DNA from: Neptuniibacter pectenicola
GTDB lineage: Bacteria; Pseudomonadota; Gammaproteobacteria; Pseudomonadales; Balneatricaceae
DNA length: 64,000 nt
Direction of reading: 5' to 3'
Assembly (NCBI RefSeq): GCF_001597735.1
Contig: NZ_LUTS01000001.1
Coordinates: forward strand, 372,001-436,000
Positions 51,494 through 61,394 of this stretch are shown here, piece after piece (positions within the stretch are counted from its first letter, which is position 1; each line of letters opens with the position of its first letter). The notes under the pieces are model-generated. The model worked only from the letters and a program-made list of their open reading frames with translations. It did no database searches and was not told the DNA's origin. Both the position numbers and the translations under genes were made by a program.

Positions 51494-51898
51494 TTAAACG
51501 CCCAACACACCCTTTAAAACAATACCGCTATAACTCACAACACCTAAGACCTTACCATCCTTAATAACAGGCGCATGCGCCAAACCAAAGTTCTCAAACA
51601 AACGTGAGCAATAGCGAATATCCATTTCGGGATCCACGGAAACGACCGGCTTCGCCATTACTTCATAGACGTTGACTCGCTCTGGTGCACGATCTTTAGC
51701 TACAACGTTCTTGGCCACATCAGATAAAAGTAACAGTCCATATTCATCATCAGGGTTTCGCTTATTAATGATAAGCACTTCAGAATTTTGTTGCTGAAAT
51801 ACAATCAAAGCATCCTGCACAGTAATTAAACCATCAATAATAGCAAACTCATCCGTCATTACATCGCGGACACGGACTACTTTCTTTTCTACTTTCAT
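51494..51898 (-). CDS. CBS-pair protein of the DUF1538 operon
   Basis: A 134-residue protein made of two CBS motifs: VRDVMTDEFAIIDGLITVQD near the start and VYEVMAKPVVSVDPEMDIRY with FGLAHAPVIKDGKVLGVVSY in the second half. CBS pairs bind adenine nucleotides and regulate transporters and enzymes. There is no attached catalytic or membrane domain. Its start overlaps the PII-like gene stop by 4 bases, making it the last gene of a four-gene operon. A regulatory role on the DUF1538 membrane pair is a reasonable inference. Confidence 0.85.
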   Translation of the reverse strand: MKVEKKVVRVRDVMTDEFAIIDGLITVQDALIVFQQQNSEVLIINKRNPDDEYGLLLLSDVAKNVVAKDRAPERVNVYEVMAKPVVSVDPEMDIRYCSRLFENFGLAHAPVIKDGKVLGVVSYSGIVLKGVLGV

Positions 51899-52245
51899 AG
51901 CTCATCCTCAACGATATTCGATAGCTCTTTCACTTGATGAGCAATCCCTACTGCATCCTCTATATCAACTTGTATCGCTATTCCACGACCAGGATGCTCT
52001 TCAAACTCCGCAACGTTAGAAATTGTTTCTAGAATCTTCCGACTTAAATGCTCTTCAACAATAAAGAGCACAACATCACGCTGAGATACAAGCGTTAATC
52101 CTAAAAACGTTTTAGGCTGATTTACACCTTCTCCGCGAGCATTATTAATGACAGTAGCGCCTGTAGCACCCGCTTCGCGCGCAGCTTCCATGACCGCCTC
52201 AGTTTTTGAATCTTCTACAAAAACCACTAATAACTTGAAATGCAT
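51895..52245 (-). CDS. PII-like signalling protein of the DUF1538 operon
   Basis: A 116-residue protein with a PII-type ferredoxin-like fold: FKLLVVFVEDSKTEAVMEAA, the ligand-loop region GATGATVINNARGEG, and VVLFIVEEHLSRKILETISN in the second repeat. The loop lacks the uridylylated tyrosine context of GlnB/GlnK, so this is a PII-like protein and not a nitrogen regulator proper. It is followed by the CBS gene and preceded, after 20 bases, by a DUF1538 gene. PII-like proteins commonly gate neighbouring membrane transporters. Confidence 0.82.
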   Translation of the reverse strand: MHFKLLVVFVEDSKTEAVMEAAREAGATGATVINNARGEGVNQPKTFLGLTLVSQRDVVLFIVEEHLSRKILETISNVAEFEEHPGRGIAIQVDIEDAVGIAHQVKELSNIVEDEL

Positions 52246-52265
52246 AACCGCCCCTTCGACTACTA

Positions 52266-53045
52266 TTAGTCCGTTATCTTGCTACGTTTAGTACGTAATT
52301 CTGCAATTTGCGCATATGCCATAACCGTTATTATCGGAAACAAACTAGCAAATGCAATCAAGCCAAAACCATCTATTAAAGCGCTACGTCCCGGCACGGT
52401 TTCAGCTAACCCTAAGCCTAATGCTGCAACTAAAGGAACCGTGACCGTTGATGTTGTAACCCCACCAGAATCATATGCTAACGGCACGATCATTTTAGGG
52501 GCAAAAAATGTTTGAATAACAACAATGATATAACCAGCAATAATAAACCAGTAAATCGGGTACCCTGTAACTATACGCCAAGCACCTAAAGAGATCCCTA
52601 TAGCAACCCCTATAGCAACCGCAATCCGAAGTCCCCAAACACCTATAGAGCCCCCCGAAACCTCATTCGCCTTCATAGCTACAGCAATAAGAGAGGGTTC
52701 GGCAATTGTTGTGCTGGCACCTATAGCAAAGGCAAAGATATACACCCAAAAATAATCATACCAACGAAGGCCCATATCGGAAGGGCCACTCCAAGCACGA
52801 ATAAAATCAGGATCTGTTAACTGCTCAGCCATTAAACGGCCAATAGGGAACAACGCTTTTTCTAGTCCTAACAAAAATAGTGCAAGACCAAGCACTACAT
52901 AAACAAAACCAACTAACACCTTTCGAAGGTTGGCTATACGCCGTCTGATCACACCAAACTGAAAACCAAAAAGAATAACCACAATAGGTATTACATCTTT
53001 TATGGTAGCAAGTGTAATATCAGCAAATTGCTCCCAAAATCCCAT
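52266..53045 (-). CDS. DUF1538 integral membrane protein, second of pair
   Basis: A 259-residue polytopic membrane protein with about seven hydrophobic segments. It carries the DUF1538 signatures AIGASTTIAEPSLIAVAMKA near residue 110 and [20 protein letters not shown] near residue 188, followed by ALGLGLAETVPGRSALIDGF. The paired Thr-Glu-Pro-Ser and Asp-Ser-Gly-Gly-Val-Thr-Thr-Ser repeats suggest a transporter-like core. The substrate is unknown. Its ATG overlaps the stop of the first DUF1538 gene (TAATG), so the two are probably made in equal amounts. Confidence 0.85.
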   Translation of the reverse strand: MGFWEQFADITLATIKDVIPIVVILFGFQFGVIRRRIANLRKVLVGFVYVVLGLALFLLGLEKALFPIGRLMAEQLTDPDFIRAWSGPSDMGLRWYDYFWVYIFAFAIGASTTIAEPSLIAVAMKANEVSGGSIGVWGLRIAVAIGVAIGISLGAWRIVTGYPIYWFIIAGYIIVVIQTFFAPKMIVPLAYDSGGVTTSTVTVPLVAALGLGLAETVPGRSALIDGFGLIAFASLFPIITVMAYAQIAELRTKRSKITD

Positions 53046-53788
53046 TACATCAACATTCCATAGGCCATTACAAAAATCATAGGAGAAAGTGAAGCGAAGG
53101 CAATCAACCCAAAGCCATCAATCATCGGATTACGCCCCTTAATAGAAGAAGCCAACCCAACCCCCAGAGCAGTCACTAAAGGCACTGTAATAGTCGAGGT
53201 GGTGACGCCACCCGAATCATACGCTATTCCAATTATTTCTTTAGGCGCAAAAAAAGTCATAATAACCACTAAAAGATAACCACCAATAATCATATATTGA
53301 ATTGGCCACCCTTTAAGAATACGAAGCACCCCCAAAACAATTGCAAAGCCAACAGAAAAAGCGACGGTGTATCTAAGGCCGGACGCATATTCAAGTTGAG
53401 CTTGAGGCTCCATAGCGATCATACCACCAGCTGCAGCCACCTGAGCCGCTTCAGCCGCGACCGCAATTAATGCAGGCTCGGCTACAGTCGTTCCCACACC
53501 TAGAGCAAACGCAAAAAGTAATAACCAAAAAAGACTTCCTTTTCTCGCAAACTCATACGCCATACTCCCACCAATGGGAAACAACCCCATTTCTAAGCCA
53601 TAAATAAAAAAAGTAAGGCCGGCAACGACACACAAAAAGCCAACAAGAAGGTTAAAAAAATCAGGAATCGGCTGCTGTAAAACAACAAGCTGAAAAAATG
53701 CAATAACGAGCACAATAGGCGCTAAATCACGTAAGCTACCGAGCATCGATTGACTTAATGCTAATAATCCTACTCTCAAGACAGTCAA
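53045..53788 (-). CDS. DUF1538 integral membrane protein, first of pair
   Basis: A paralogue of the next gene, 247 residues from a TTG at 53788; ATG 53746 would give 233. The same signatures occur: [20 protein letters not shown] near residue 95 and [20 protein letters not shown] near residue 190, then [20 protein letters not shown]. The two proteins share fold and motifs but are diverged, as expected for subunits of a heteromer. This is the first gene of the operon. No ribosome site is convincing for either start. Confidence 0.83.
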
Positions 53789-53907: not shown

Positions 53908-55077
53908 CTAGCGAGGCACAGGAGAAGTAATCGCGTCATTAACACCCGCAAACAGCGTCTCATGCTGTAAGTCAGTGTATTCATTTGTAGACTTAACAAT
54001 ATCAACCATACCGACTACAGATTGAGCATTACCACCAAAAATGGCACCGTTAACCGAACCCGTTACCACGCCATCAACAGCACTCAAGTTACCTGAATTT
54101 GCCATAAAGTTAATGCCATCAACCGTACCATTAGTAACAGCAAAAGCAACCTGACCTACAACATTAGTAGCTGTTGTACGAACAAAGCCATCACCTTGAA
54201 CATCGCCATTATTCCAAGCACCATTCCATGTATTATTGCCAAAATCGATGGATGCCGCGAACGTACCTCCATGCATGGTAATACCGCTATAAGAAGCGAT
54301 GACACCATTAGAACCAGTATAATCATTTAACTGATCCAAAGAGGTTGTAATACCCGCCCAAACAGCGCCATTAGCATTATCAAAACCAGAACGAGACAAC
54401 GTACTATCGGACCACGTACCCTCAGCCACACCTAATAGAGGGAAGACGTTATCAAAGAAGGCTCGAGAATAAGTACTCCCTTCCTGTTTAGCTAAGCCAC
54501 CCCAGCCATAACCAAAAGTACCTATAGCATCCTCAACCGTTAGCTCATACCCCTCATTACCCTGAACAGTAAACGAACCTCCTATATGAGGAAACAGAAC
54601 CCGTCTCCAATTAGGGCGATCGGTATCCACTTCATGCACCTCTGCGGTAAAAGTACCTACATCAACAACAGCAAATCTTGTCGGTACTGGAAGTCTACTT
54701 TGTTCGCTTTGAGACGCTGGAGCCGAGCTTTGAGAATAGTTAGATTCTCGAATGGTAACAAACCCACAGATTGCACCGGCTTCGCATAATGCAATATCGG
54801 CAGCACCTGGATCTAGTGGATCTACTGGTACACCAAACCCAGGTTCATTTTGTCCATTACGACCCGTCTCACCTTGACCTACACCAGCAAATGCTAATCC
54901 TAAGGCTGCTGTGTTAACTTCACCACCCGCTGCAGTCGCAAAGTTTTGCGCCCACTGACCCCAAGATTGTACAGAGTCTTCATCATCCGAAGACCCTGTA
55001 TTAGCCGAAGCCACTAAAGGTGCAACTAAAAGAATCGAAGCTATAGATACAGAAACTAGATTTCGCTTAAACATCAT
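53908..55077 (-). CDS. Secreted protein, probable Slam/T11SS cargo A
   Basis: A 389-residue protein with a Sec signal peptide ending ASAN near residue 26 and no lipobox cysteine. Just after cleavage comes DDEDSVQSWGQWA, almost repeated in the second cargo-like protein (57072-58367). The C-terminal third (WNGAWNNGDVQG, VVGQVAFAVTNGTVDGINFM, LSAVDGVVTGSVNGAIFGGN) resembles the small beta-barrel domain of TbpB-like Slam substrates. Its gene lies next to the Slam-like gene. I do not recognise the N-terminal half. A role in binding a ligand at the cell surface or in the medium is inference. Confidence 0.75.
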   Translation of the reverse strand: MMFKRNLVSVSIASILLVAPLVASANTGSSDDEDSVQSWGQWAQNFATAAGGEVNTAALGLAFAGVGQGETGRNGQNEPGFGVPVDPLDPGAADIALCEAGAICGFVTIRESNYSQSSAPASQSEQSRLPVPTRFAVVDVGTFTAEVHEVDTDRPNWRRVLFPHIGGSFTVQGNEGYELTVEDAIGTFGYGWGGLAKQEGSTYSRAFFDNVFPLLGVAEGTWSDSTLSRSGFDNANGAVWAGITTSLDQLNDYTGSNGVIASYSGITMHGGTFAASIDFGNNTWNGAWNNGDVQGDGFVRTTATNVVGQVAFAVTNGTVDGINFMANSGNLSAVDGVVTGSVNGAIFGGNAQSVVGMVDIVKSTNEYTDLQHETLFAGVNDAITSPVPR

Positions 55078-55181
55078 TATATCCCTTATCTTAATGAGCG
55101 ACCCAGCTCCTAGTGTTTAAACATAGGCGGGTAATAATTAGTATATGTTTATATTTTATACATATAAGTCATGTTTGTAAT

Positions 55182-55195
55182 TGTACCAAGGTACA
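55182..55195. promoter_or_regulatory. Palindrome upstream of cargo A
   Basis: TGTACCAAGGTACA is a perfect 14-base palindrome 105 bases upstream of the cargo A start. A related sequence, GTACCAATAGTAC on the minus strand, lies at 58517-58529 upstream of cargo B. It may be a shared operator; the binding protein is unknown. Confidence 0.4.
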
Positions 55196-55595
55196 GGTAA
55201 GTATTTTTTATTTAACTATAAAAAAACAATTACCGCTCACCACTTTCAAACAAGAAATACGTATAACACACGTTGTTTTTCCTACAAAAATAAACAACAA
55301 CATCAACGATATTGCCAATAGTTAAGAGGGTAGTAGCTCATTTTCATACCTAAGCACGTACAAGCCTATTCAAACAGCAGCAAACTGATAAAAATTTAAC
55401 TACTTAGTAAACAAATAGATAGCTACTCCCATTCATCCATCAAGCACCAAACACAAAAGGGTGTCCCCCTAGCCTTTCGAAAAGCATCTTAACTTATATA
55501 AATTATAGTTTAGCGATGGTATATCACCAGTATTTTTCGTCTAGCAGAGCTAAATAATGACGAGAAGATGAAGGCTAGGCCAAAAAAATAATGAA

Positions 55596-55626
55596 AAAAA
55601 GGCCCCTAAAAAGGGGCCTTTCAAAA
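55596..55626 (-). terminator. Terminator of the Slam-like gene
   Basis: AAAGGCCCCT-AAAA-AGGGGCCTTT with a T7 tract on the minus strand, about 20 bases after the Slam-like stop. Confidence 0.92.
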
Positions 55627-55642
55627 AAATCACGTGCGGACG

Positions 55643-56917
55643 TTAGAACTTTTTAGCCAAATTGATTGATAGCTGATTACGATCGTACTGATACAACTCA
55701 ACATTCGAATCAGCCTCAGATCTCATCCATACCGCAGACAACTCTAGCTCATTAGCAAAGGTGTGCTTACCACCAATAATAAGCTGAATCTGCTCATCAT
55801 CTCTAACTTTACCCACCCCTGTAACTACACCTTTGAAATCGGATTCATTATAGGATAAACGGCTAAACAAACTCGTAGTCGGCTTAACTTGCCAATTTAC
55901 ACCAGCAAACACTTCCCAACCATTATTAGAAAACTCCGCCTCATTCGCATCGTTTTCAAAACCTTCAATACCCGCTTGAACACCCACTGTGTTATTTCTA
56001 TAACCTTTACCAAGCGCTATACCAACGGAGTAATAATCAGAATCACGCCCCTGATCCGTTGCTTCTTGGAAGTTACGGTCAGTAAACTCAGCATCAACTG
56101 TTAATTCAGTACTCCCATCAAATGACCAAGTCATCGATGGCTGAAGACCAATATAGTTAGCTAAATCATTACCGCCTAAACGGATATGATCCACTTGCAA
56201 AGCGATGTTACCACGCCATTTTTTGTTAGTAATAACCGCAGGCCCTGTACGCAATGACAAAACATCTAGGTTAAAATCATCTTCCGTATCATAACCACGA
56301 TGATAAACCGACGCGCCACTCTGCCAGAACAACATACCTGTACTCTGCCCTAAACGAAGTGTCTTACCTGTACGATAGCTATGATCATAACTACCACTAA
56401 CCACCAGTGCATTATCACTGACCGGGGAACCACCCGTAATGGTAAAAGGAGTGCCGTTAACATTCACAACAGAGCTTGATGGCCCTACGTTTACATTGCT
56501 ATCGAATAAGACTCCAGCGGAAAGGTTAAACTTATGATCATGCTGCGGCGTTAGCTGCTCTTCATCTCTTTTCAACTGCGCTAAAAATGCCAATATAGAT
56601 ACACGTACACTTGCAGGAGTTTGAGGGTCATCTAGCACCGTTTGTGCTTGCGCTTCAGCTTCTTGATATTGCAGCGTCTGCATATAAGCAACAGCCAATT
56701 CAAGTCGCGCACGGTGAAGTGAGGGCTGGTTACTTAGAATCGTTTGGAATGATTCAATTGCACTATAAGGAGAACCTTTTTCACGTGCCTCCATGCCCTG
56801 TTTGAAAAACTGCTCCGGATCAAACTGCTCTGCTGTGTTTTCCTCTGCCATACCTGACGTCGCCACCATTGACAGTAAAACACCTGACAGCACAGAAACC
56901 CCGCTGTAATTTTTCAT
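55643..56917 (-). CDS. Slam-like outer-membrane protein (type XI secretion)
   Basis: A 424-residue protein with a signal peptide ending GMAE near residue 25. Residues 33-130 are a periplasmic TPR-type helical domain (FFKQGMEAREKGSPYSAIES, then RARLELAVAYMQTLQYQEAE). From about residue 135 a 14-strand-like beta barrel begins (FNLSAGVLFDSNVNVGPSSS) and ends QLSINLAKKF with terminal Phe. This TPR plus DUF560-type barrel is the Slam architecture, which moves TbpB-like proteins across the outer membrane. It is flanked by two candidate cargo genes on the same strand. Confidence 0.83.
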   Translation of the reverse strand: MKNYSGVSVLSGVLLSMVATSGMAEENTAEQFDPEQFFKQGMEAREKGSPYSAIESFQTILSNQPSLHRARLELAVAYMQTLQYQEAEAQAQTVLDDPQTPASVRVSILAFLAQLKRDEEQLTPQHDHKFNLSAGVLFDSNVNVGPSSSVVNVNGTPFTITGGSPVSDNALVVSGSYDHSYRTGKTLRLGQSTGMLFWQSGASVYHRGYDTEDDFNLDVLSLRTGPAVITNKKWRGNIALQVDHIRLGGNDLANYIGLQPSMTWSFDGSTELTVDAEFTDRNFQEATDQGRDSDYYSVGIALGKGYRNNTVGVQAGIEGFENDANEAEFSNNGWEVFAGVNWQVKPTTSLFSRLSYNESDFKGVVTGVGKVRDDEQIQLIIGGKHTFANELELSAVWMRSEADSNVELYQYDRNQLSINLAKKF

Positions 56918-57005
56918 ACTCTAAATCCCCTTTTCGTATGTACGCTATTGATAATGACCAGCGTTTATTGAAAGGGAGTATAACTACTGAGTATATTTCA
57001 CACAA

Positions 57006-57037
57006 CCAAAAAGGCACCTTTTAAAAGTGCCTTTTAG
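57006..57037 (-). terminator. Terminator of cargo B
   Basis: AAAAGGCAC and GTGCCTTTT pair around a TTTTAAAA centre, with a T5 tract on the minus strand, 35 bases after the cargo B stop. The Slam-like gene therefore likely has its own promoter or depends on readthrough. Confidence 0.8.
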
Positions 57038-57071
57038 TCGAATAACACCCTCTAATAAAGACGAACACCCG

Positions 57072-58367
57072 TTAGATACCGTTCGCTTGCGGTGATATTT
57101 GACGACTCGTATTAAACGTTGTTACGTGAACCGCATCAGTATAACCTTCGACATTCACTGAAGGTACATTGGGTTGGGTACCTGCCTGCGTTTTAACTAT
57201 ATCGGCCACACCCGCAATCTCGCCCCCTTTCTCACCGAAAAAAGAAGCATTAACAGTGCCTGAAACAGCGCCATCAAAGGCACTGAGCGCATTCGAGTCG
57301 GCACTCAAATTAATACCATTAATTGTACCACCCTGAATATTAAAACCGACCTGCCCAACAACTGTCGTTCCATTTTCGCTCGCATAGGTCATCACCTGCC
57401 CATCATACCCCCCATTAAAAGAACCTCCCCACGTTTGATTTGAGAAGTTAACACTCAACTGCACAGGCGCCCCCCATGCACTATGTCCTTTATATTGAGC
57501 AATGAGATCACCACTCAGCTCAGCAAAACTATTCATAGCACTCAACTCATCTTGCAGCGCTGTTAGATCATCCAAGGTAGAGCTCACGCCAAAGATAAAA
57601 CTACCCAAATAAGCCTGCGCGTATTGTTCGTCGCGATTTAGCGCACTAGAGAACCAAAGCCCATGAGATACGTTTCGTCCGTCTAAACCACCTAAGCGGC
57701 CATGATCAAGTCTCATATACGGCGCAAAAGGCCCACGACAGTTACCCAAGCAACGAATAGACGTATCCGTCAAACCATCTAAACGTAGATTGTCTTCATC
57801 ATAACCATAATGCGTTAACATTGAATTTAAGCGCATTCGCTCATCTAGTGTTAGAGACTCGATATTAATATAGCGGGGATCATCCCCATTAGGCGTCACA
57901 GAAAAACCTAGTGCATCGTAACGCCTAATGCTCTGACTTTCAGATTCATAGCCTTCCATAGAAAACCCAGCGACAACAGGCGTCAAACTAGACACCCCCA
58001 TTCGCACCAACAACCCATTGGGTGAGCGTCTTTGCAGTGATTGACGCTCACTTTCAGAAAAATCATGTACGAGCGGATAATAAGTAGCATAACCACAAGC
58101 GGCACCTGGCAAACAGCCTCCAGAAACCTCGCTATCAGGATTACCTGAAATATCAGGGTCAAAAAAAACATATTCAGGCCCCCCGCCTCCCGCAAGTAAA
58201 AGGGGATTAACAGCCGCTTCAGGCCCTGCAGCGGTCGTGACCGGCATCGCCCAAGGCCCCCACTCACGAACCGAATCTTGCTCATCATCTTCTTGCTGAT
58301 TTGCAAAAACCGATGATGCTAACAACGAAGAGACTAACGCCGTTACAATACCTATTTTTAAGTTCAT
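57072..58367 (-). CDS. Secreted protein, probable Slam/T11SS cargo B
   Basis: A 431-residue protein from ATG 58367, which follows a GAGGGG ribosome site; a longer frame to 58499 is unlikely. The signal peptide ends SVFA near residue 21, without a lipobox. DDEQDSVREWGPWA follows, matching cargo A. The middle part has two cysteines in SIRCLGNCRGPF and two in GGCLPGAACGY. The C-terminus (VVGQVGFNIQGGTINGINLS, LSAFDGAVSGTVNASFFGEK, GGEIAGVADIVK) is homologous to cargo A and resembles the TbpB-type small barrel. The paired cargo proteins differ mainly in their N-terminal regions, which suggests different ligands. Confidence 0.77.
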   Translation of the reverse strand: MNLKIGIVTALVSSLLASSVFANQQEDDEQDSVREWGPWAMPVTTAAGPEAAVNPLLLAGGGGPEYVFFDPDISGNPDSEVSGGCLPGAACGYATYYPLVHDFSESERQSLQRRSPNGLLVRMGVSSLTPVVAGFSMEGYESESQSIRRYDALGFSVTPNGDDPRYINIESLTLDERMRLNSMLTHYGYDEDNLRLDGLTDTSIRCLGNCRGPFAPYMRLDHGRLGGLDGRNVSHGLWFSSALNRDEQYAQAYLGSFIFGVSSTLDDLTALQDELSAMNSFAELSGDLIAQYKGHSAWGAPVQLSVNFSNQTWGGSFNGGYDGQVMTYASENGTTVVGQVGFNIQGGTINGINLSADSNALSAFDGAVSGTVNASFFGEKGGEIAGVADIVKTQAGTQPNVPSVNVEGYTDAVHVTTFNTSRQISPQANGI

Positions 58368-58670
58368 CACACACCCCCTCAAAAGCTGCGCCCTACAGCT
58401 TTTGAATTTATCATCTACGTTCTTACTTACCCTAAGAATAGCCCCTATCGTAAAAAACAGTACAAAAAACAACCAAACATCCACTGTATTTTTTTTCATT
58501 CAAATGAGATATTTCAGTACTATTGGTACGGCTCAGCCATAATGCGCATCAACATTAACCGCCACGGGCACGCTAATTGTCTGAAATAAGCTTTAAACGG
58601 CTTGAGCAGTAGTATTTTTAGCTTAGTTAGATATGCTTACATGATCAGGGACATATTGAGATAATTGCTA

Positions 58671-59303
58671 ATGAGAGCACGCTGTTCACTCCTCATATTC
58701 GGAGTCATGTTATTTTTCCCTTTGACATGGGCACCTCAAACCCATGCGGGGCTCTTTGGCTCACAAGAATTACCCCAGCGCACACTGAGTGAACTGCCTG
58801 ATTGGCTTAGCTACATGGAGCGTCATTTAAGAGAAGACACACCTGAAGAGATATGTCGCCAATCCGGCCTATGCAATTTGAAGCCCTGGTATAGTTTTCT
58901 TGAGAGCATCAGAGGTCTACCAAAACGCCAGCAACTTGAGCGCGTCAACCAATATGCAAACCGCCAACCTTACATCCAAGATATAGACAATTACGGAAAA
59001 GCGGATTACTGGGCCGTAGTGAAAGAATTTTTATCACGAAGCGGGGATTGTGAGGACTACTCCCTCACGAAATTTTTCTCATTACGTTTACTCGGTTTCA
59101 GTAACGATGAGTTACGCATTGTTGTATTGCAAGACACAAACTTACGTATTGGCCACGCGGTACTCGCCGTCAAGTACGGAGGGGATGAACTCATTCTTGA
59201 TAATCAAAGTCGGCAGGTCATATCCCATCGCAACATTAAACACTACACCCCTCTGTACACCGTTAATGAAAAACGCTGGTGGTTACATATGCCGGTTTAC
59301 TAA
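58671..59303 (+). CDS. lapG: LapG-type periplasmic cysteine protease
   Basis: A protein of about 210 residues with a signal peptide ending THAG near residue 27. It belongs to the bacterial transglutaminase-like cysteine proteinases. The catalytic Cys is in SGDCEDYSLTKFFSLRLLG near residue 126, the His in IGHAVLAVKYGG near residue 162 and the Asp in ILDNQSRQV near residue 177. LapG cuts the N-terminus of LapA-type adhesins to release them from the cell surface when c-di-GMP is low. The in-frame TTG at 58665 adds two residues. The LapB/LapC/TolC exporter is 19 kb away; the adhesin is not in the window. Confidence 0.9.
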   Translation: MRARCSLLIFGVMLFFPLTWAPQTHAGLFGSQELPQRTLSELPDWLSYMERHLREDTPEEICRQSGLCNLKPWYSFLESIRGLPKRQQLERVNQYANRQPYIQDIDNYGKADYWAVVKEFLSRSGDCEDYSLTKFFSLRLLGFSNDELRIVVLQDTNLRIGHAVLAVKYGGDELILDNQSRQVISHRNIKHYTPLYTVNEKRWWLHMPVY

Positions 59304-59366: not shown

Positions 59367-61394
59367 ATGAAGCGCATATTAACTACTGGAGTTATCAGCC
59401 TCACACTTATCTTTTTGATATGTATGTTGTTAATTAACCGTTTCACTGAAAACCAACAAGCGCAAAGTGTACAGCATTGGCAAACCACACTATCAGCCCT
59501 GGCCGACAATCAAAGCCTAAGCGTTACACGGTGGATGTTTGCAACAGAAGCACCGCTGAAAGAGATCACCGATAACAACTCCGTTCGCTTATACCTTCAA
59601 CGCTTAAATGGAAAGTCGTCCGCTGAACAAGAGAAAACCGCGCAAATTGATTATCTGCGCAACCTAATTATTGCTGCCGCTAACCGTGAAGGCTATACCG
59701 ATAAAGCGCGAAGCAGCATTAATGCAAATTTAAGAATTATCGCTAACACCTCACTTGCGCTCTATGACGCCGACTTAAAACTGGTCGCAGGCACACCTGG
59801 CTTAGCTCCCATCAGCCAAGCAATTAAAGACACACTGCAATCAAACCTAACAATCGGCAGCGTTTCTCCCACCCATATATGGAAAAATGAAAACCAAGTC
59901 GGGCAAATTGCATTCGTTAGCGCAATAACAGGTTTACCTCAATTTGGCGCCGAAGATGAGATAATAGGCTACCTTATCGGTATTAAAAACGCCGAGAATG
60001 AGCTCTATAGTTTACTGCGCAACTTTAGTGTCGAATTACAGTCGTTAGAATCAGCCCTGTTACAGAAAAAGGATGACGGCCTCGTATATGCAAGCCCTTT
60101 ACGCCAAGATAGAGACTCAACCCTTAACAAGCTCATCCCCACGAACGGACAAACCGCAGCAGCGCAGGCCTTTAATACACCCGGCCAATTCATTCAGGCA
60201 ATAGATTACCGTAACATTGAGGTGCTCGCCGTTAGCCGTGATATTGCCAGCACCGACCTTAAGCTCATCATTAAAGTCGACAGAAGGGATGCCCTCGGAC
60301 AAAGTTTAGACGAACAAGCTGATCTGCAAATGATGCTGATACTTGGCACTCTGGCGTTACTGGCAATGCTAGTTGCTGCCGGCTGGTATGGCCACCTACT
60401 GAAAGAACAGAAGTCAAATGAAGTACTACGCGCCACCACCCTTGCACTAAAAGAGAAGACCAGCCTACTTGATGCGATCAATAACAATGTAACCGATATG
60501 GTTATGATCGTTGACCAAAACATCAACCTTGCCTTTATTAACCACGCCCTAGCCAGCCAAGTTGCAATAGATCCAGAAGATAGCGAAGGGAAAAACCTAA
60601 ACTCAGTACTCGGAAGCCATTATGCTGAGCAGCTGTCCCCTCTCATTAAAGCGTGCTTTGCAAATCAAAAAGAGAGTACATCTAAAAAGTCACTAGAACT
60701 CAAAGGAAAGGTCAGTACATTTGTTATCAATTTAGTCCCCATGCTCTATGGCGAAACATCAGCGGTGATGCTGCATTTCCATGACATTACGTTGATTGAG
60801 GAACACCAGAAACAACAAACCCAACTGCTTCGACAAATCATGCAATCACTCATGAATGCGATCGATCTACACGACCCTTACTCAGCGAACCATTCGCAAA
60901 AAACAGCCAAAATAGCGGTCGCAGTCGCCGACGCAATGGCATTCAAAGAGAGTGATCGTGATGCGCTTGAGATTGCAGCAAACCTTTGTAACTTAGGAAA
61001 GTTATCCATTCCACAAGCGTTACTCACAAAAACGGAGCCGCTTACAGCAGAAGAGCGTGCAGTGGTCAAAAACGAAGTACAACACACACGGGAAATACTA
61101 CAAAATATTGAGTTTGACGGCCCCGTACTAGAAACCATCTTGCAAAAACATGAGTACTTGGATGGCTCAGGCTCTCAAGGCATATCCGGTGATGCACTGT
61201 TACTCAACGCTCGAATACTGACAGCCGTTAACGATTTTGTTGCCATGATTAGCCCAAGGGCATACAGAGAGAGCTTACCGGTCGAAACAGCATTAGCGAC
61301 CCTTCTAAAAGATGCCGGCAAGCGTTATGACCGCCAAGTAGTGGCATCACTATTTCATGTGGCGGAAAACAAGATTAATTTCGACACCCTTTAA
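59367..61394 (+). CDS. Membrane sensor with PAS and degenerate HD-GYP domain
   Basis: A 675-residue protein: membrane segment (residues 5-25), periplasmic sensor of about 290 residues, second membrane segment (LMLILGTLALLAMLVAAGWY-like, near residue 325), PAS domain (residues 370-480) and HD-GYP domain. In the last, the HD dyad reads LCNLGKLSIP near residue 537 (Cys-Asn instead of His-Asp) and GYP reads DGSGSQGISG near residue 598, so metal binding and c-di-GMP hydrolysis are probably lost. It lies 63 bases after lapG in the same direction and takes the place usually held by the c-di-GMP receptor LapD. A receptor role is inference. Confidence 0.85.
   Translation: MKRILTTGVISLTLIFLICMLLINRFTENQQAQSVQHWQTTLSALADNQSLSVTRWMFATEAPLKEITDNNSVRLYLQRLNGKSSAEQEKTAQIDYLRNLIIAAANREGYTDKARSSINANLRIIANTSLALYDADLKLVAGTPGLAPISQAIKDTLQSNLTIGSVSPTHIWKNENQVGQIAFVSAITGLPQFGAEDEIIGYLIGIKNAENELYSLLRNFSVELQSLESALLQKKDDGLVYASPLRQDRDSTLNKLIPTNGQTAAAQAFNTPGQFIQAIDYRNIEVLAVSRDIASTDLKLIIKVDRRDALGQSLDEQADLQMMLILGTLALLAMLVAAGWYGHLLKEQKSNEVLRATTLALKEKTSLLDAINNNVTDMVMIVDQNINLAFINHALASQVAIDPEDSEGKNLNSVLGSHYAEQLSPLIKACFANQKESTSKKSLELKGKVSTFVINLVPMLYGETSAVMLHFHDITLIEEHQKQQTQLLRQIMQSLMNAIDLHDPYSANHSQKTAKIAVAVADAMAFKESDRDALEIAANLCNLGKLSIPQALLTKTEPLTAEERAVVKNEVQHTREILQNIEFDGPVLETILQKHEYLDGSGSQGISGDALLLNARILTAVNDFVAMISPRAYRESLPVETALATLLKDAGKRYDRQVVASLFHVAENKINFDTL

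Follow-up and report, generated by a model that had tools for sequence, protein, structure and literature searches.

A type XI secretion locus of Neptuniibacter pectenicola whose tagged cargo may be released by a LapG-type protease under cyclic di-GMP control

In a 64,000-nucleotide stretch of the Neptuniibacter pectenicola genome (hereafter the window), three minus-strand genes at positions 53908-58367 encode a Slam-type outer-membrane protein (OMP) of the type XI secretion system (T11SS) and, on either side of it, two exported proteins that we call cargo A and cargo B. Just outside these limits, a gene for a LapG-family periplasmic protease is divergent from the cargo B gene, and the next gene after it encodes a receptor (Table 1). 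A preliminary description, made from the letters of the window, had recognized a Slam-type locus in which the OMP gene is flanked by genes for two homologous exported proteins, and this stands: the genes lie where it placed them, and the OMP matches TPR_Slam (PF24575; E 1.5e-8, 35.5 bits), passing the cutoff of 35.2. It had also seen that the two cargo share an N-terminal motif (DSVQSWGQWA in cargo A and DSVREWGPWA in cargo B) and guessed at a targeting or anchoring tag. It missed the TAAG behind the motif, the gene for a LapG-type protease, and the gene for a DvhD-type receptor, and it is these three that give the tag its most likely meaning.

Table 1. Features of the locus (positions are those of the window)
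Feature	Position	Strand	Details or basis
Cargo A	53908..55077	-	389 aa; signal peptide, tag, TAAG, linker, C-terminal domain homologous to that of cargo B
Tag DSVQSWGQW, cargo A residues 34-42	54952..54978	-	Sequence
TAAG, cargo A residues 48-51	54925..54936	-	Match to LapG consensus
Terminator-like hairpin 3' of the Slam gene	55597..55622	-	Weak: 12 such sites in the region versus 7.6 expected
T11SS/Slam-type OMP (TPR plus barrel)	55643..56917	-	424 aa
Cargo B	57072..58367	-	431 aa; signal peptide, tag, TAAG, CxxGxxCG loop, TbpB-like C-terminal domain
TAAG, cargo B residues 45-48	58224..58235	-	Match to LapG consensus (PMC13090378)
Tag DSVREWGPW, cargo B residues 31-39	58251..58277	-	Sequence, alignment
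LapG-family periplasmic cysteine protease (Peptidase_C93)	58665..59303	+	C-H-D residues and acids beside the cysteine
Receptor: N-terminal (periplasmic) domain, PAS, degenerate HD-GYP (HD to CN)	59367..61394	+	Nearest solved structure DvhD

In both window cargo, TAAG starts at the sixth residue past the last tryptophan of the tag (DSVxxWGxW) and matches the published consensus of LapG proteases, [T/A/P]AAG, which these enzymes cut between the alanines (PMC13090378, PMC6890996, PMC11264772). In an alignment of 16 barrel-type cargo from six families, 15 of which are 23-58% identical to cargo B, the S, W, G, and W of the tag and the G of the (T/P)AAG site make up 5 of the 11 invariant columns, and the V of the tag and the two alanines of the site are nearly invariant. 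The spacing is close to fixed. Among 38 tagged proteins from all fetched loci, 33 carry [T/A/P]AAG at a distance of 5 or 6 residues past the tag's final W, and one more carries it at +22, against a background of 64 matches in 285438 positions of other long open reading frames (ORFs) and 2 in 9344 positions of the rest of the tagged proteins. The stretch from the site to the C-terminal domain often contains much Pro, Gly, or Asp, a composition that would suit it to spanning a pore.

The window protease matches Peptidase_C93 (PF06035) with 68.4 bits, where the cutoff is 27, and its nearest relatives in the PDB are the LapG proteins of P. fluorescens (4U65, E 1.8e-16) and L. pneumophila (4FGO, E 3.9e-16). 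Its sequences GDCED, GHAVL, and ILDN supply the Cys-His-Asp triad and the calcium-site acids beside the cysteine, and a signal peptide is visible by eye. We infer that it cuts the adjacent cargo between the two alanines in a calcium-dependent manner. The same genome has a second, canonical C93/LapG protease beside a LapD-type protein (LapD_MoxY_N); in a tree of 29 proteases, a 100/100 branch splits 25 dedicated enzymes from 4 that are linked to LapD (that of locus L046 by eye). The receptor has Pfam matches to PAS and HD_5 and is nearest in the PDB to DvhD (9RC0, E 1.8e-50; 9RBZ, E 7.7e-39), a non-catalytic receptor that binds cyclic di-GMP (c-di-GMP) and controls the LapG-type protease DvhG (PMC13090378). 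As in DvhD, 19 of 20 receptors of this kind no longer have the HD motif (the 20th was not read), which is CN in the window receptor; GYP is also lost in the window genus, and most receptor relatives outside the window family retain it. The window receptor gave no dCache match at E≤0.1, and dCache_1 appeared under the cutoff in two of three relatives scanned. The receptor is kin to DvhD and has lost its catalytic HD, and it would bring the locus under the control of c-di-GMP.

The association of these genes is conserved. We sought relatives of the OMP in 96 relatives, 390 genomes of the order, 369 of the class, 398 of the phylum, and 11 of one further order (the samples overlap) and read the flanks of 73 loci, 29 from a close branch (model E≤2e-89) and 44 more distant. 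A gap from 2e-89 to 2e-61 separates the two sets; the model was built from 18 of the 29, so that their high scores arise partly by construction. LapG genes were counted at E<1e-15 (model from 8 locus sequences) and receptors at E<1e-50 (model from 5). Loci L035 and L036 were left out as duplicates of L067 and L068, and wide flanks are lacking for 5 of the 41 places found in the 96 relatives (all E 4e-5 or worse) and 2 of the 15 found in the further order (second copies). Thirty-five of the 44 distant loci have at least 3 kb on both sides, and one of the 44, L108, is a contig fragment of a probable close relative. The close branch comprises one locus per genome in 10 families. A LapG-family gene is present at 25 of the 29 loci, a tagged protein at 25, and an HD-GYP receptor at 20, and at two more (L091 and L094) a canonical LapG with LapD (PF16448, GGDEF, EAL) stands in place of the receptor. 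Only one of the 44 more distant loci has a LapG gene (L046) and none has the full tag; the difference between the two sets has a Fisher p of 2e-14, uncorrected for kinship. In 9 of the 10 families, at least one locus has both tag and LapG. The motif thus does recur beside other Slam genes, as the preliminary description had thought worth searching for, and its recurrence beside close relatives of the OMP fits the guess of a targeting or anchoring tag. A tag limited to the two window proteins is rejected by this wide recurrence.

Several loci of the close branch are incomplete in the stretch around the OMP gene. L086 and L103 (genomes G553 and G1147) have no LapG gene there, and tagged cargo, LapG-type, and receptor genes lie together elsewhere in these genomes (L128 and L129). 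At L104, whose contig breaks off next to the OMP gene, the tag is present and the LapG gene is not in the locus; L097, with a contig end at the OMP gene, has LapG and receptor, and a tagged protein is on another contig of that genome (L130). One scan of genome contigs returned two loci only, both from Neptuniibacter.

Taken together, the tag, the LapG consensus, the LapG-like protease, and the receptor genes suggest that the cargo stay at the surface until an internal signal causes them to be cut free. We consider it probable that this is a branch of T11SS in which cargo are held by an N-terminal tag and released by LapG-type proteolysis gated by c-di-GMP. Cargo A and B would be exported by Sec and then passed through the Slam-type OMP. 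The tag would remain in the periplasm and hold the chain, perhaps on the TPR part of the OMP, with the flexible linker running through the pore and the C-terminal domain outside. At low c-di-GMP, the LapG-like protease would cut between TA and AG just behind the tag and free the cargo; at high c-di-GMP, the PAS/HD-GYP receptor would restrain the protease. This mechanism is modeled on two precedents. A Lap-type adhesin of Legionella has been proposed to thread C-terminus first and to stall with a cleavable N-terminal part in the periplasm until freed by LapG (PMC11264772), and in proteoliposomes the T11SS protein Slam1 carries TbpB across the membrane in unfolded form (PMC9090332).

Each part of this arrangement has a known counterpart from which the window locus also differs. 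The TXISS-1B type (HrpB/HrpC, hemophilin; PMC8406197) likewise consists of a TPR-barrel OMP and a neighboring Sec-exported, non-lipidated protein with one TbpB-type C-terminal domain, but that paper does not mention LapG, and the window OMP is divergent. The Lap system (LapA/LapG/LapD; PMC13090378, PMC11264772, PMC6890996) shares the LapG-family protease, the [T/A/P]AAG site behind an N-terminal periplasmic part, and a c-di-GMP receptor, with LapD itself present at two of our loci; its substrates, however, are large adhesins of type 1 secretion, whereas those of the window are small proteins beside a T11SS OMP. The Dvh system of Desulfovibrio (DvhG/DvhD; PMC13090378) also pairs a LapG-family protease with a receptor composed of a periplasmic domain, PAS, and a degenerate HD-GYP, but it serves type 1-secreted adhesins, whereas the window locus is gammaproteobacterial and tied to T11SS. 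CdrA of P. aeruginosa (PMC4694147) is a precedent for a LapG target that is not homologous to LapA, although the site in this large adhesin is C-terminal and speculative, and that of the window cargo is N-terminal and conserved.

Several observations weigh against the proposed mechanism. Cargo A and B have about 25 mature residues before the cut site. The retention module of LapA is much longer than that. The targeting helix and DP of LapG substrates were not seen in cargo of the window type, which have no DP between tag and site. Four tagged proteins have PASG, PLAG, PAGG, and PEAG in place of the consensus. The 38 tagged proteins include many that are closely related, and nine of them came from a search with a cargo profile that itself contains tag and site, so the counts among them are not independent. 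The protease tree has long branches (L051, L046, L076, and L050), flagged in its output. At L051, at L076, and at L101, whose contig ends, tag and protease are accompanied by no receptor in the fetched stretch. The genome with locus L093 (G465) lacks a C93 protease at E≤0.001 and gave no hit to the cargo profile, and the locus itself is without a tagged protein; since the short tagged proteins of G521 and G590 escaped this profile too, the absence is weak with regard to the tag. Those of the tagged proteins that are short, nine in all, have by eye no room for a barrel and may be other than the usual T11SS cargo. The barrel and the translocation of cargo are both predictions, and the AlphaFold models of cargo A (mean pLDDT 26.6) and of the Slam protein (mean pLDDT 29.9) are not usable, the depth of the alignments being too low.

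Among the alternatives, one would make DSVxxWGxW a docking sequence for the LapG-like protease that replaces the targeting helix, with retention achieved by other means. The tag does sit shortly before the scissile site, in the place that a docking helix takes in LapG substrates (PMC13090378), and the full tag is absent from the 44 more distant loci, and the stretches fetched for 43 of these contain no LapG gene. The tagged proteins of L091 and L094, however, carry in addition a separate helix-like stretch (by eye) with DP behind the tag, and in L091 TAAG then follows, which is the published layout of a LapG substrate (PMC13090378). Tag and protease docking can therefore be separate, which favors the tag as an element of retention or OMP recognition. 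With WGxW alone also found in 27 of the 62 adjacent same-strand genes of distant Slam-like loci, we regard docking as an unlikely function of the tag.

Constitutive processing, in which the protease would trim the tag from every cargo during or after export, the tag being an OMP targeting signal and the cut a step of maturation, we take to be quite unlikely. It would account for the position of tag and site close behind the signal peptide in most cargo, for the short stretch before the cut, and for L051 and L076, where no receptor was seen, but the degenerate DvhD-type HD-GYP receptor at 20 of 29 loci, together with LapD at two more, argues for regulation. Soluble T11SS cargo are known (PMC8406197) and another canonical LapG stands beside a LapD-type protein in this genome, but it is very improbable that this is an ordinary T11SS locus for soluble hemophilin-like cargo, with LapG and receptor as neighbors that serve other adhesins and AAG as a by-product of small-residue N-termini, given the co-occurrence over 9 families, the tagged cargo, protease, and receptor that lie together in two genomes with the OMP gene elsewhere, and the near-fixed spacing of the consensus in 33 of 38 proteins.

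Retention by the tag with c-di-GMP-gated release might be extended further. In this gammaproteobacterial branch of T11SS, cargo would be displayed as a threaded, plugged chain that its WGxW tag holds, and would be shed by LapG-type cleavage under c-di-GMP control, as the T11SS counterpart of the Lap adhesin system, and WGxW would serve Slam-like OMPs more widely to signal recognition or a boundary, in use also beside distant ones that have no LapG. We put this forward tentatively, as a possibility that falls short of being probable. The full tag as a signal of all Slam cargo was rejected, since it is absent at the 44 more distant loci, though WGxW alone is common there. Its frequency in the adjacent same-strand genes compares with 3 matches in 104292 residues of non-adjacent ORFs, and 26 of the 27 genes have a copy 150-217 residues before the C-terminus. 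WGxW is possibly a general element of T11SS cargo. Several of these neighbors have a FecR-like start (one checked in Pfam), including one in the window's own genome (L037:7669-9231, C112), and a single protein at L041 has six copies of WGxW. Homology of the FecR-type C-terminal domains to the tagged cargo was not supported, as hhalign aligned only the six residues SWGRWA with a probability of 5%, and a Pfam scan of these domains gave no TbpB match. Directly before distant Slam-like genes, L053:3859-4680 and L054:5378-6187 encode acidic exported proteins in which the signal peptide is followed by DWGDW; the WGDW proteins of L052-L054 gave no convincing alignment with the cargo and were kept out of the cargo set. 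At L046:1699-7768, a very distant Slam-like gene lies near a LapG-family gene and a LapD-like gene (by eye), and this locus also has a small exported protein with WQGW.

If the proposed mechanism is true, it would join the display of T11SS cargo with the control of surface attachment by c-di-GMP, two fields that are apart in the papers searched. One branch of T11SS would gain a directly testable mechanism by which soluble cargo stay on or leave the cell, involving one protease, one bond, and one tag. Characterized members are lacking in most T11SS clusters from water and soil (PMC8406197). We found no link of LapG to T11SS, DUF560, or TbpB among the papers listed from the searched literature, which leaves most subscription papers outside and is no proof of absence. 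A 2025 survey of T11SS neighborhoods (PMC12282271) nowhere mentions LapG, and in the passages searched a review (PMC10778856) keeps LapG apart from T11SS and leaves the latter out and PMC13243786 draws no link between c-di-GMP and T11SS.

With regard to the cargo themselves, the best start of cargo B is at 58367, where a signal peptide and an upstream AGGGGG (by eye) are found, and not at the mechanical ORF start, 58499. The preliminary description held that neither cargo has a lipobox, and reading the signal peptides from the sequence rather than with a predictor bears this out: the signal-peptide region is without cysteine in both, and lipid anchoring was rejected on this ground. Non-lipidated cargo are no novelty, having already been established for T11SS (PMC8406197). 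Of its TbpB-like C-terminal barrel, the homology between the two proteins holds (39% identity over cargo B residues 274-394, E 7e-18). The TbpB-type barrel domain PF01298 (TbpB_B_D) stays under its cutoff of 26 in cargo B (E 6.7e-5, 23.8 bits), and a Pfam scan of cargo A gave no match, PF01298 included, so that the barrel is likely rather than proven. Among the 16 aligned cargo, PF01298 was found in 4 at E≤0.01 and NF041636 in 7 at E≤0.05. In the PDB, the cargo profile had one match, UipA, which at E 0.17 is not meaningful; cargo A had none, and cargo B matched phage baseplate proteins alone (E 0.13-0.18). A search of the window's own genome with the cargo profile returned cargo A and B only.

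Other genomes show some variety in their cargo. In two close relatives (L035:2300-2760 and L036:2500-2930), cargo B is broken at its start by stop codons or a shift of frame where the signal peptide and tag are encoded, with the remainder open, and cargo A is intact. Two relatives have extra cargo dispersed away from the OMP gene (G010, L132, L133, and L134; G001, L131, L135, and L136), and 6 of these 7 sequences carry tag and TAAG, the seventh (L135) having been read without its N-terminal part. The nine short tagged proteins (L089, L091, L094, L095, L096, L105, L106, L107, and L130) are mostly proline rich and have a signal peptide and the tag, with PAAG or TAAG in eight of them. Several are adjoined by a second exported protein, and one of two such proteins scanned gave a PEP-CTERM match under the cutoff.

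The window OMP is divergent from known T11SS OMPs as judged by the barrel family SlipAM, which it matches at E 0.15, under the cutoff. Among 18 aligned OMP relatives, the window OMP included, TPR_Slam was found in all 18 and SlipAM in 10 at E≤0.01. The window's own genome has a second Slam-like gene, beside a gene for a FecR-domain protein, and at L098:6661-7967 the OMP gene reads as two overlapping ORFs. At 51494-53788 of the window lie genes for two similar membrane proteins, a small PII-like protein (by eye), and a CBS-domain protein, and a similar run is also found near the cargo genes of several relatives.

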